Assembly: GCA_016214125.1 (NCBI GenBank)
Contig: JACRPC010000027.1
Location: 1 to 64,000, forward strand
DNA: 64,000 nt
Origin: Rhodospirillales bacterium
GTDB taxonomy: Bacteria > Pseudomonadota > Alphaproteobacteria > Rhodospirillales > WMHbin7
Direction of reading: 5' to 3'
Within the stretch, counting starts at the first letter, position 1. Each line of letters starts with the position of its first letter. Below are positions 52,641 through 56,995 of the stretch, in pieces. Both the position numbers and the translations under genes were made by a program. The notes beneath the pieces are model-generated. The model had not been told where the DNA came from. It ran no database searches and saw nothing but the letters and a program-made list of their open reading frames with translations.

Positions 52641-53330
52641 ATGACCGACAGCCCCGACGCCTATACCAAGCCCACGCACTACATCGACAGCGATCATCCG
52701 GACGTGATCGCCTTTGCCAAGCGCCTGGTGGGCGATGCCACCGATCCGGCCGAGAAGGCCAAGCGCTTGTATTACGGCGTGCGCGATGAAGTGGCCTACG
52801 ACCCCTACCGCGACTTCGAGCGCGAGGATTCCTATTCGGCCAGCGGGGCGCTCCATTTGCGCAAGGCCTTCTGCGTGGGCAAGGCGGCGCTGATGGCGGC
52901 GGCCGCCCGTGCGGTGGGCGTTCCGGCAAGGCTCGGCCTGGCCGATGTGCGCAATCATCTGGCGACGCCGCAGTTCCTCGACATGGCCGGCACCGACATG
53001 TTCATCTATCACGGCTTCACCGAGGTCTGGGTCGAGGGCAAGTGGGTCAAGGCGACGCCCACCTTCAATCTCACGCTGTGCGAGAAGTTTGGCGTCAAGC
53101 CGCTCGATTTCGACGGCCGCAACGACGCGCTGTTCCATCCCTTCGACATCAACAACCGCAAGCACATGGAATACACCGCCTATCGCGGCCAATATGCCGA
53201 CGTGCCGGCCCAGGAAATCCGCGACGCTTTCAAGAGCTACTATCCCAAGCTCTACGCCCACAACCAAAGCCGCCACCAAGACGATTTCGGCAACGAAGCC
53301 CTGGCCAGCCGCCAGAAGGCCGGCGTCTGA
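52641..53330 (+). CDS. Transglutaminase-like protein
   Basis: 229 residues from ATG 52641, AGGA upstream. Transglutaminase core: Cys78 in LRKAFCVGKAALMAAAARAV, His124 in FIYHGFTEVWVEGKW, but the usual Asp of the triad is Thr139 (VKATPTFN). Either the triad uses another residue or the protein binds without cutting. No signal peptide. It lies 21 bases before the double Fe-S protein and is the first gene of that operon. In other bacteria such folds act as cysteine proteases or peptide ligases. Confidence 0.82.
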   Translation: MTDSPDAYTKPTHYIDSDHPDVIAFAKRLVGDATDPAEKAKRLYYGVRDEVAYDPYRDFEREDSYSASGALHLRKAFCVGKAALMAAAARAVGVPARLGLADVRNHLATPQFLDMAGTDMFIYHGFTEVWVEGKWVKATPTFNLTLCEKFGVKPLDFDGRNDALFHPFDINNRKHMEYTAYRGQYADVPAQEIRDAFKSYYPKLYAHNQSRHQDDFGNEALASRQKAGV

Positions 53331-53351
53331 ATTCCAAGGGAGGATTGTGCC

Positions 53352-55379
53352 GTGGCCCTTGATGCCGCCGCCGTCAAAAAGAAGGCCCGCGATCTGGGCG
53401 CCGATCTGGTGGGCGTTGCCTCGGCGGCGACGCTCAACGCCCATCCGCCCGATCCGCGTTTCCCCCAAACGCCCGACCGCATATCGCCTTATTGCAAGAG
53501 CGTGATCGTCATTGTCACGCGCGTGCCGTCGGCCGCCTTCCGCTGTTCCAACCTGCCGGCCGTTCAGTATCAGACTAGCATCGTCATGCGCCGTATGGAC
53601 CGCATCGCCTTCAAGCTGGCCGATTGGATGGAGCGCCAGGGCCATCCCAGCTTCACCACCGCCGCCCAGGAAACCAATTGGAACTACAAGAACGGCACTT
53701 ACGGCTATCTCTCCACCCGCCATCTCGGCATCGAGGCGGGGCTGGGCACCTTTGGGCTCGGCGTCAACATCCTCACGCCGGAACTCGGGCCGCGCCTTTA
53801 TCTCACCGGCGTGCTGACCGAGCTTGAACTTGAGCCCGACCCGATGATCACCGAGCAGGTTTGCATCGGCGAAGGCTGCTCGCGCTGCCTTTACGCCTGC
53901 CCGACCGACGCCGTCGGCCATTTCGGTTTGAACAAAGCGCAATGCTCGACCAAGGCGCAGGAATTCGGCTTCGCCGCCATGACTCGCTTGTTCGCCGATT
54001 TCGCCCGCGCCGACGCCGAGGGCAAGCGGACGTTGCTGAAGTCGCCCGACGCCTACGGCATGTGGCAAGGCATGACGCGCGTGGTCGGGCTGTTCGGCGC
54101 CTGCCCGCGCTGCCACGGCACCTGCCCGATCGGTCACGACTACCACGCCTTTCTGGCCGAGCCGCAAAAGGTGATTCCGGAAAAGACGCCGGAGAAGGTC
54201 GCCAAGGGCAAGGACATGCGCCAAGCCCGGGCGGAAGGCCAGCCGATCCCCGGTCTCAACGACTACAACATCCGCTGGGTGGGGCCGGACGGTTATTCCG
54301 GCGCCGCCGCGCTTGATCATCTCAAGGAATTCAAGCGGACCCAGGAAGAATTGGCCCGCTCCGACAACCGCCCCCTCGCTCCCGAGGGCAGCACAGGGAA
54401 AGCCGCCATGGTTAGCGCCTACAAGAAGCCTTTGACCGCCCAACAGATCAAGGACATGGCCCGCGAATTGGGGGCCGATCTGGTCGGCATCGCCGACGGC
54501 GCCGTGATGAACGCCAACCCGCCCGATCCCAAGGACCCGCGCCGGCCCCAGGACATCACGCCGCTCGACGGCAAGCGCGCCATCGTGTTGGCCAGGCGCA
54601 TCAACAGCGGCACCACGCGCATCGCCGCCTGGGACGAGCGGCACAAATACTACAATGACGAGATCGCCCTCACGCTCTTGGAAGAAACGGCGCTCAAGCT
54701 GTCCTTGTGGCTCGAGGACCAGGGCTATCCGTCGCTGGTGATTCCGCCCACCCATGTCGATCCCTGGCGCTTCAAGGGCGATCCCGATCAGCCGATGAAG
54801 CCGCTCTTGTCGGCCACCCACGCCGCCGTCGAGGCCGGTTTGGGCACGTTGGGGCTCAATCTGCAACTGATCACGCCCGAATTCGGTCCGCGCGTGATGC
54901 TGGTGGCGCTGCTCTCCTCGGTCGAGGTCGAGCCCGACAAGAAGATGGAAAAGGCGTTGTGCGGCGGCCCGTCTTGCGGCCGTTGTCTCAAGGCCTGCCC
55001 GGGCGACGTGGTCAAGCATTGGGATCGCGATTTCGCTGGCTGCGACCGCTACCGCTCGCCCAACGGCTACCACAAGCTGGTCGATTACCTCGGCCGGGTG
55101 GTTGATGCCGGCGATCCCGACAAGCAGAAGGCGATGCTGCGCTCGAAGGACAGCTTCGACGTTTTCCAAAGCATCCTGCGTGGCGTCGGCATCATCACCG
55201 GCTGCCGGCGTTGCCAGGACGTCTGCCCGATCGGTGCCGATTACGAGGCCATGTTGAAGGATGCGCTCGATCCGATCGCCGAGACGACGCCGGCCAAGGA
55301 AGCGCGTCTCGCCGACATGGTCAAGGCGCTCAAACCGCCGGCCTATGGTGCGCAGGAGCGCTGGATCGGCAAGCTTTGA
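53352..55379 (+). CDS. Tandem QueG/reductive-dehalogenase-like corrinoid Fe-S protein
   Basis: 675 residues from GTG 53352, made of two homologous halves (about 1-345 and 355-675). Each half has a QueG/RdhA-type catalytic part (ARDLGADLVGVA and ARELGADLVGIA near the starts; EAGLGTFGLGVNILTPELGP and EAGLGTLGLNLQLITPEFGP) and eight Cys for two [4Fe-4S] clusters: 171, 176, 179, 183, 198, 251, 254, 258 and 537, 542, 545, 549, 564, 618, 621, 625. The family binds cobalamin. The halves have diverged, so one may be catalytic. No signal peptide. It is followed 56 bases later by an aryl-CoA ligase. Confidence 0.85.
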   Translation: MALDAAAVKKKARDLGADLVGVASAATLNAHPPDPRFPQTPDRISPYCKSVIVIVTRVPSAAFRCSNLPAVQYQTSIVMRRMDRIAFKLADWMERQGHPSFTTAAQETNWNYKNGTYGYLSTRHLGIEAGLGTFGLGVNILTPELGPRLYLTGVLTELELEPDPMITEQVCIGEGCSRCLYACPTDAVGHFGLNKAQCSTKAQEFGFAAMTRLFADFARADAEGKRTLLKSPDAYGMWQGMTRVVGLFGACPRCHGTCPIGHDYHAFLAEPQKVIPEKTPEKVAKGKDMRQARAEGQPIPGLNDYNIRWVGPDGYSGAAALDHLKEFKRTQEELARSDNRPLAPEGSTGKAAMVSAYKKPLTAQQIKDMARELGADLVGIADGAVMNANPPDPKDPRRPQDITPLDGKRAIVLARRINSGTTRIAAWDERHKYYNDEIALTLLEETALKLSLWLEDQGYPSLVIPPTHVDPWRFKGDPDQPMKPLLSATHAAVEAGLGTLGLNLQLITPEFGPRVMLVALLSSVEVEPDKKMEKALCGGPSCGRCLKACPGDVVKHWDRDFAGCDRYRSPNGYHKLVDYLGRVVDAGDPDKQKAMLRSKDSFDVFQSILRGVGIITGCRRCQDVCPIGADYEAMLKDALDPIAETTPAKEARLADMVKALKPPAYGAQERWIGKL

Positions 55380-55435: not shown

Positions 55436-56995
55436 ATGTCGGGTGCCGCCAATCAGCTTGACTTTCCCACCCCCTACAACGCGGCCGAGCGCTTCATCGA
55501 CCGCAACCTCAAGGAAGGGCGGGGCGCCAAGCCGGTCATCTTCACCTTCGAGGAGACGGTGACCTACACCCAACTGGCCGAGCGCGCCAGTCGCGCCGGC
55601 AACGCTTTGTTGGCGCTGGGCATCGGCAAGGGCGACCGGGTGCTGATGATGATCAAGGACTGCCCAACCTTCTATTACATCTTCTGGGGCGCCATTCGCG
55701 CCGGCATCGTCCCGGTGCCCTTGAACACGCTTCTGCGCGCCAAGGACTACGCCTTCATCATCGAGGATTCCGGCGGCGCGGCGGTGCTCTATTCGCCCGA
55801 ATTCGCCTCCGAGGTCGAGCCGGCGCTGGCGCAATCCAAACATAAGCCAAAGGTGGCGATGGCCGCCACCGGGCCCGGCAACGGGTTCGATGCGCTGCTC
55901 GCCAAGGCCTCGGCCGAATTGGCCGCCCAGCCTTCGACCGCCGAGGGCGATTGCTTCTGGCTCTATTCCTCGGGCACCACCGGTAGCCCCAAGGGCGCCG
56001 TGCATGCCCAGCGCGACATGGAAGTGACCTGCCGCCAATACGCCCTCGCCACCTTGGGCGCCATCGAGGGCGACATCTTCTTCTCGATTCCGCGCCTGTT
56101 CTTTGCCTACGGGCTGGGCTGCGCCATGACCTTCCCGATATGGGTGGGCGGCGCCGCCGTGCTCGATCCGCGCCGGCCGACGCCCGATACGGTGATGGAG
56201 GTGTTGACGCGCTTCCGGCCCACCGTTTTTGCCGCCGTGCCCACCTTCTACACGGCGATGATCCACCATCTGGAAGGCGCCGGGGCCAAGGGCCACGATT
56301 TTTCCCATCTGCGCCGCTGCGTCACCGGCGGCGAGGCGCTGCCGCCCGAGATGTTCAAGAAGTGGAAGGAACTGACCGGCGGCATCGCCCAGGACGGCAT
56401 CGGTTCGACCGAGGCGCTCCACATCTACATCTCCAACCGTTTCGACGACATCAAGCCGGGCGCTTCGGGCAAGCCGGTGCCGGGCTATGATTGCCGCATC
56501 CTCGATCCCGAAGGCAAGGAAGTGCCGGTGGGCGAAAGCGGGCGGCTGTTCATTCGCGGCCAGTCGATCGCCAAATACTATTGGAACAACCCGAAGAAGA
56601 CCGCCGAGACCATGGTCGAGGGCTGGCTCAACACCGGCGACACCTATCTCAAGGATGCCGACGGCTATTACTTCTATTGCGGCCGCTCCGACGACATGCT
56701 GAAGGTGGGCGGCATCTGGGTTTCGCCCTTCGAGATCGAATCGGCCCTGGTCGAGCATTCCAAGGTGCTGGAAGCGGCCGTGGTCGGCCGCGCCGACGAC
56801 GAGGGGCTCACCAAACCCGAGGCCTACATCGTGCTCAAGGATGCGCGCGACGCCGGCGATGGGCTGGTCAAGGAATTGCAGGATCACTGCAAGAAGACCC
56901 GCGCCCCCTACAAATATCCGCGCTGGGTGAATTTCGTGGCCGAGCTGCCGAAGACCGCCACCGGCAAGATCCAGCGCTTCAAGCTGCGGCACTGA
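55436..56995 (+). CDS. Benzoate-CoA ligase family enzyme
   Basis: 519 residues from ATG 55436. ANL enzyme: the P-loop YSSGTTGSPKGAVH (about 177-190), motif GSTEALHIYIS, STGDTY-type loop at NTGDTYLKDADGYYFYCGRS and the catalytic Lys (about 511) in TATGKIQRFKL. FPTPYNAAERFIDRNLKEGR at the N-terminus and WGAIRAGIVPVPLNTLL are typical of benzoate- and hydroxybenzoate-CoA ligases. It activates an aromatic acid with ATP and CoA. It closes the operon. The exact acid cannot be predicted by eye. Confidence 0.88.
   Translation: MSGAANQLDFPTPYNAAERFIDRNLKEGRGAKPVIFTFEETVTYTQLAERASRAGNALLALGIGKGDRVLMMIKDCPTFYYIFWGAIRAGIVPVPLNTLLRAKDYAFIIEDSGGAAVLYSPEFASEVEPALAQSKHKPKVAMAATGPGNGFDALLAKASAELAAQPSTAEGDCFWLYSSGTTGSPKGAVHAQRDMEVTCRQYALATLGAIEGDIFFSIPRLFFAYGLGCAMTFPIWVGGAAVLDPRRPTPDTVMEVLTRFRPTVFAAVPTFYTAMIHHLEGAGAKGHDFSHLRRCVTGGEALPPEMFKKWKELTGGIAQDGIGSTEALHIYISNRFDDIKPGASGKPVPGYDCRILDPEGKEVPVGESGRLFIRGQSIAKYYWNNPKKTAETMVEGWLNTGDTYLKDADGYYFYCGRSDDMLKVGGIWVSPFEIESALVEHSKVLEAAVVGRADDEGLTKPEAYIVLKDARDAGDGLVKELQDHCKKTRAPYKYPRWVNFVAELPKTATGKIQRFKLRH

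Follow-up and report, generated by a model that had tools for sequence, protein, structure and literature searches.

A fused pair of QueG/RdhA-related iron-sulfur proteins encoded beside a benzoate-CoA-ligase-family gene in a Rhodospirillales bacterium

The open reading frame at positions 53352-55379 of the window, as the whole stretch of 64,000 nucleotides that was analysed is called here, encodes two related proteins, A and B, joined in one chain, which judged by sequence form a third family next to QueG and RdhA and belong to neither of them. A and B are two old families, and the single chain is a later fusion brought about by loss of the stop codon of A. The reading we favor, and to which we give about an even chance, is that the two make up a heterodimer fused into one chain, a reductase of class-III type whose substrate is an acid activated with CoA and probably aromatic; the reaction and the corrinoid are what we infer.

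The fused gene has an open frame and a strong coding score, and the sequence AGGGAGG is located at 53337-53343, 8 nt 5′ of its GTG start codon. The gene, the parts of its product and its immediate neighbors are as follows:

52641..53330, + strand: transglutaminase-like protein, 229 aa, ending 21 bp 5′ of the fused gene (PF01841, 72 bits)
53352..55379, + strand: fused A-B gene, 675 aa, GTG start (half A, residues 1-352; half B, residues 353-675)
53352..53849, + strand: N-terminal domain of half A, residues 1-166, nitroreductase-like, class III corrinoid-type (AlphaFold2, Foldseek, HHalign)
53850..54161, + strand: ferredoxin domain of half A, residues 167-270, two predicted [4Fe-4S] clusters (Cys invariant in 29 orthologs)
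54303..54431, + strand: linker, about residues 318-360, poorly conserved, site of the former A/B gene junction (dS/dN; stop and start codons of the relatives fall here)
54408..54410, + strand: ATG that once served as the start codon of gene B, retained in the window copy and preceded by AGGG
54432..54947, + strand: N-terminal domain of half B, residues 361-532 (HHalign to A and to RdhA; conservation)
54948..55262, + strand: ferredoxin domain of half B, residues 533-637, two predicted [4Fe-4S] clusters (Cys invariant in 29 orthologs)
55436..56995, + strand: benzoate-CoA-ligase-family enzyme, 519 aa, 56 bp 3′ of the fused gene (TIGR02262, 591 bits; cut-off 375)

Both halves contain a set of eight cluster cysteines, namely residues 171, 176, 179, 183, 198, 251, 254, and 258 in half A and 537, 542, 545, 549, 564, 618, 621, and 625 in half B. 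These 16 residues are exactly the ones listed by the initial annotation, with an offset of 366 for the first five and 367 for the last three; the remaining two of the 18 cysteines of the ORF, Cys48 and Cys65, are both found in half A. Since all eight positions are invariant in both ortholog families (29/29 for A and 29/29 for B), one chain is predicted to hold four [4Fe-4S] clusters.

When the two halves were aligned with each other, as the initial annotation had proposed, homology was found to run from end to end and to persist outside the Cys loops. The local alignment score was 508 (best of 300 shuffles: 54), masking of both Cys regions left a score of 343 (47 in shuffles), and the N-terminal parts alone scored 187 (62 in 1000 shuffles). 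A profile-profile comparison of the A and B ortholog families yielded E=1e-74 across 315 columns. By region of half A, the identity between A and B amounts to 50% for residues 1-60, 25% for 61-117, 47% for 118-166, 41% for cluster loop 1, 20% for 201-245, and 50% for cluster loop 2. These values do not uphold the earlier impression of greater divergence in the N-terminal parts than in the cluster loops, as residues 1-60 and 118-166 are as alike as the loops; divergence is concentrated in residues 61-117, the active-site helix/loop region, and in residues 201-245.

In the relatives from the same order and class, A and B are two adjacent genes, with identities of about 63% from A to A, about 63% from B to B, and about 35% from A to B. 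Separate neighboring genes in the order A then B are present in 76 of the 80 named loci, an A frame alone in three, and a fusion in one (L074, from a marine alphaproteobacterial MAG). The intergenic gap is mostly -4 to +13 nt, and A and B are neighbors in every relative in which both were seen. Apart from L074, fusion was found only in the window copy and in a second copy on another contig of the same genome (C47), which is 81% identical over its full length. The stop codon of A and the start codon of B in the relatives fall in the linker region, the fastest-changing part between the window copy and the C47 copy (dS 1.2, dN 0.30). In a quick tree with weak deep branches, the A sequences group apart from the B sequences, and L074 is placed away from the window copies, which implies at least two fusion events. 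The initial annotation had described an internal tandem duplication: the duplication is real and the chain does contain two sets of 2x[4Fe-4S], but it did not originate within this gene, as the relatives have separate A and B genes that were fused later; a fresh tandem duplication is rejected in view of these split orthologs.

The start codon of B is kept as ATG in the window copy (54408), reads GTC in the C47 copy, and has no counterpart at this place in L074, so that in the latter two B would be made only within the fusion. The stretch at window positions 54395-54410, AGGGAAAGCCGCCATG, which lies within the fused gene, comprises what is left of a ribosome site together with a start codon and might still give free B. 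Repeated fusion together with constant pairing argues for A and B working as a 1:1 complex.

Matches to A-B were obtained in 19 of 317 genomes at the order level and in 12 of 385 at the class level, each count including the own genome; A-B was absent from the four other genomes listed for the own family and from a phylum-wide sample of 397 further genomes. The distribution is patchy, with carriers mainly in Alphaproteobacteria (60 loci) and Betaproteobacteria (15), and many of them are marine or sponge-associated MAGs.

The kinship to QueG and RdhA, each of which contains one such cluster set, had been suggested by the initial annotation and is borne out, as both halves match the models of the two families weakly but significantly. 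The scores of half A, half B and the whole chain were 42, 46, and 76 bits for QueG (TIGR00276, curated cut-off 200 bits) and 30, 34, and 54 bits for RdhA (TIGR02486, curated cut-off 160 bits), respectively. The closest PDB sequences to the halves are QueG and PceA, and for B also NpRdhA. The genome encodes a QueG of its own on contig C36 (349 bits) and an RdhA of its own on C6 (186 bits). These scores below the cut-offs, the absence of the RdhA Arg/Lys described below and the presence of the two proper enzymes elsewhere in the genome suggest that A-B is a third family. Identity as QueG was rejected because of the cut-off and the separate QueG, identity as RdhA proper because of the cut-off and the missing catalytic Arg/Lys. 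Searches directed at a phage or plasmid origin gave merely weak QueG-like matches, and a search for defence systems with PADLOC yielded no match.

For half A, an AlphaFold2 model (119 alignment rows, pLDDT 89.4, pTM 0.89) was compared with known structures using Foldseek. The best 46 matches were exclusively QueG or RdhA (prob 1.00, E 1e-9 to 3e-6), followed by the B12 protein CblC (E 0.02-0.04). The TM-scores to QueG and RdhA were modest (0.42-0.48, with large rmsd), and the domain arrangement in A may therefore differ from that of both. The nitroreductase-like corrinoid fold of the superfamily is thus found in A by Foldseek and in B through its homology to A, and the two-cluster ferredoxin domain with eight Cys is present in both halves; for corrinoid binding, the class III superfamily has no diagnostic sequence motif (PMC4646009). 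A full-length AlphaFold2 model from 19 paired rows was poor, and its top Foldseek matches, catabolic RdhA, are given little weight because of its pLDDT of 59.8. Solely to align both halves for this model, the stop codon at the junction was ignored in some of the split loci, and these read-through sequences support none of the conclusions.

With regard to the active site, profile alignment with HHalign matches Tyr73 of A to the Tyr in the D-Y-H motif of QueG and to a Tyr at the corresponding site of an RdhA, and the B equivalent of this catalytic residue is Tyr433 or Tyr434 (HHalign to A and RdhA). Residues 72-74 of A read Q-Y-Q, so that of the motif only the Tyr is present, and the position of the acidic active-site Asp of QueG is not clearly conserved. 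At the position of Arg305 of PceA, A has Tyr150 and B a variable Met516; of the RdhA combination of catalytic Tyr and Arg/Lys, the Tyr is aligned and the Arg/Lys is absent from both halves.

A-B thus shares with QueG (5d08, 5d6s) the succession of a nitroreductase-like and a 2x[4Fe-4S] ferredoxin domain, the aligned Tyr, and in A also the Tyr at the RdhA Arg position (VYL in QueG), but it differs in scoring far below the QueG cut-off, in the replaced D and H, in being paired or fused, and in its location beside CoA ligases. Respiratory RdhA (PceA, 4uqu; 8q4h) has in common with A-B the core AVEAGLG...TPEFGPR...D and the two cluster motifs, and its homodimer could serve as a template for the packing of A and B; in contrast to it, A-B contains neither the catalytic Arg/Lys nor an N-terminal twin-arginine signal and stays below the RDH cut-off. 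Catabolic RdhA (NpRdhA, 4ras/6zxu; JtRdhA) resembles A-B in having about 700 residues and an internally duplicated corrinoid domain forming a one-chain pseudo-dimer (PMC10463259). In NpRdhA, however, one half is vestigial and there is a single cluster set, whereas both halves of A-B keep the eight Cys and a PDOR domain is absent. CblC (MMACHC), the distant fold match to the corrinoid-type domain, has neither a ferredoxin domain nor a duplication.

The genome carries a CobT gene and two cobalamin riboswitches, and no cobalamin riboswitch was found anywhere in the 64-kb window. About ten QueG/RdhA-like proteins are encoded in the genome (contigs C6, C12, C14, C28, C33, C34, C36, and C37), one of them a true QueG and one a true RdhA, while most fall in no named family. 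Additionally, a short QueG-like Fe-S family of about 305 aa without NCBIfam match occurs in gene clusters for acyl-CoA catabolism, accompanied by a small partner gene (L142:4916-5836, which is C33 of the own genome; L108:13302-14219, L114:14076-15002, and L124:13317-14246) and is close to A-B in five loci.

Direct searches of the gene neighborhoods revealed a PaaK-like CoA ligase in 59 of 80 loci, directly adjacent to A-B in 54 of them (about two thirds of all loci), and benzoate-CoA-ligase-like enzymes in 22 of 80. Counting both types, 66 of 82 loci have such an enzyme no more than 1.5 kb from A-B; about one fifth of the loci have no CoA ligase within this distance, several of these being on short contigs. 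As the C47 copy adjoins an acyl-CoA-ligase-family gene, both copies in the genome lie beside a CoA ligase. Other genes near A-B encode Liv-type ABC transporters (about 20 loci), enoyl-CoA hydratase (18), an FAD-monooxygenase/OYE protein resembling salicylyl-/2-aminobenzoyl-CoA monooxygenase (7), true RdhA (7, adjacent in three), Rieske oxygenases (4), and kynureninase-like proteins (5; this name, like other neighbor names such as tryptophan dioxygenase, comes from Pfam tallies and N-termini and not from curated equivalog matches). These neighbors fit ring catabolism through CoA thioesters, with no one pathway common to all loci, and since they vary, the substrate may vary as well.

Several further neighbors were observed. 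The transglutaminase-like protein is possibly an operon partner of A-B, and homologs of it are found near A-B in 12 other loci, including L060, L064, L072, L113, L114, L115, L116, and L122. PaaA/PaaC-type diiron proteins (aryl-CoA epoxidase family) occur in up to 10 loci (L083, L076, L065, L078, L104, L113, L071, L132, L136, and L137), which would suit epoxide reduction by a QueG-like enzyme. RdhA genes lie directly 3′ of B at L090:12161-13519 (Aestuariivita) and L091:12054-13412 (Tateyamaria), the former followed by a salicylyl/2-aminobenzoyl-CoA-monooxygenase-like gene in what might be a haloaromatic cluster. At L092:12272-14425, an adenosylcobalamin-dependent ribonucleotide reductase (NrdJ-like) is encoded directly 3′ of A-B.

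The position of a CoA ligase beside A-B makes the reduction of a CoA-activated acid probable. In the reading we favor, A and B, ancient paralogs each consisting of a nitroreductase-like domain and a 2x[4Fe-4S] ferredoxin domain and joined as one chain, would most likely form a pseudo-dimer through contacts between the nitroreductase-like domains, in the manner of RdhA dimers and of the halves within catabolic RdhA. By analogy with QueG and RdhA (PMC4646009), a cellular donor would feed electrons into the clusters, and the two clusters in a half would hand them on to a base-off corrinoid, which at least one half and probably both would bind; its Co(I) state would attack or reduce the substrate, with the Tyr as putative proton donor, likewise by analogy with QueG and RdhA (PMC4646009). 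The substrate would most likely be an aromatic or cyclic carboxylic acid in the form of its CoA thioester, supplied by the adjacent CoA ligase, and the reaction probably a reductive elimination, in which a halide, a hydroxyl or the oxygen of an epoxide leaves, or some other reduction at low potential. A bolder version, which we advance only tentatively, envisages a two-headed enzyme, a single chain with four [4Fe-4S] clusters and two class-III active sites that differ from each other, which would catalyze an undescribed aryl-CoA reduction (e.g., ring-epoxide deoxygenation, dehydroxylation or dehalogenation) in apparently aerobic catabolism of Alpha- and Betaproteobacteria.

Alternatively, one half might be catalytic and the other an electron relay or structural partner. 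This is conceivable, if on the doubtful side: the duplicated corrinoid domain of catabolic RdhA is vestigial and does not bind B12 (PMC10463259), the active-site stretch 61-117 is where the halves differ most, and B offers a Tyr at 433 or 434 with no single fixed one. Against it, both halves retain a full ferredoxin domain, unlike the vestigial RdhA halves, and the N-terminal domains are equally conserved, with 39 invariant residues in A and 33 in B. Mean pairwise identity among orthologs is 0.70 for the N-terminal and 0.68 for the ferredoxin domain of A and 0.65 and 0.64 for those of B, and the corresponding dN/dS values between the window copy and the C47 copy are 0.17, 0.18, 0.22, and 0.20, respectively. 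There is no decay in either half, and purifying selection acts on all four domains. The notion put forward by the initial annotation that one half now only moves electrons finds no support here, as the N-terminal domains (dN/dS 0.17-0.22) are conserved as well as the ferredoxin domains.

It seems unlikely that A-B is a reductive dehalogenase specifically for halogenated aryl-CoA (or aryl) substrates. The true RdhA (TIGR02486 above cut-off) directly 3′ of B in L091 with its homolog in L090, the seven RdhA-containing loci overall, and the many marine or sponge-associated carriers would agree with such a role, yet neither half scores anywhere near the RdhA cut-off, both are missing the Arg/Lys of RdhA, and most loci are without RdhA. 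Less probable still is a helper role, in which A-B would reduce or reactivate the corrinoid held by a different B12 enzyme, or would serve a cluster partner as general low-potential electron carrier. The four predicted clusters, the distant fold match to the B12-processing CblC, the RdhA neighbors in a few loci and the B12-dependent ribonucleotide reductase in one are compatible with it, but no single B12 enzyme accompanies A-B and the constant partner is the CoA ligase. An unusual tRNA epoxyqueuosine reductase is very improbable: although QueG is among the best PDB sequence relatives, the halves remain far from its cut-off, the D-Y-H motif has not kept its D and H, and a proper QueG is encoded elsewhere in the genome. 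That the fusion arose from an error in assembly or sequencing, as the two genes and the junction stop codon of the relatives might suggest, is refuted by the fused C47 copy on another contig, in which 19% of the residues differ under purifying selection and the internal start is lost, and by the independent fusion in L074.

The superfamily and internal duplication within it (catabolic RdhA) are already known. The novelty lies in a family that occurs as a pair, in which each half is complete, fusion has taken place twice, and there is a link to CoA ligases; no description of the A-B pair was found in the open-access literature searched. Two class III B12 chemistries are established, dehalogenation and epoxyqueuosine reduction, and more families have been suggested to await discovery, as no sequence motif marks them (PMC4646009). 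A-B is a candidate for a third class III B12 family, and the fused forms, in which A and B are already joined 1:1, can be taken as they are for expression, for counting cofactors and for structure determination, which makes the question directly testable.
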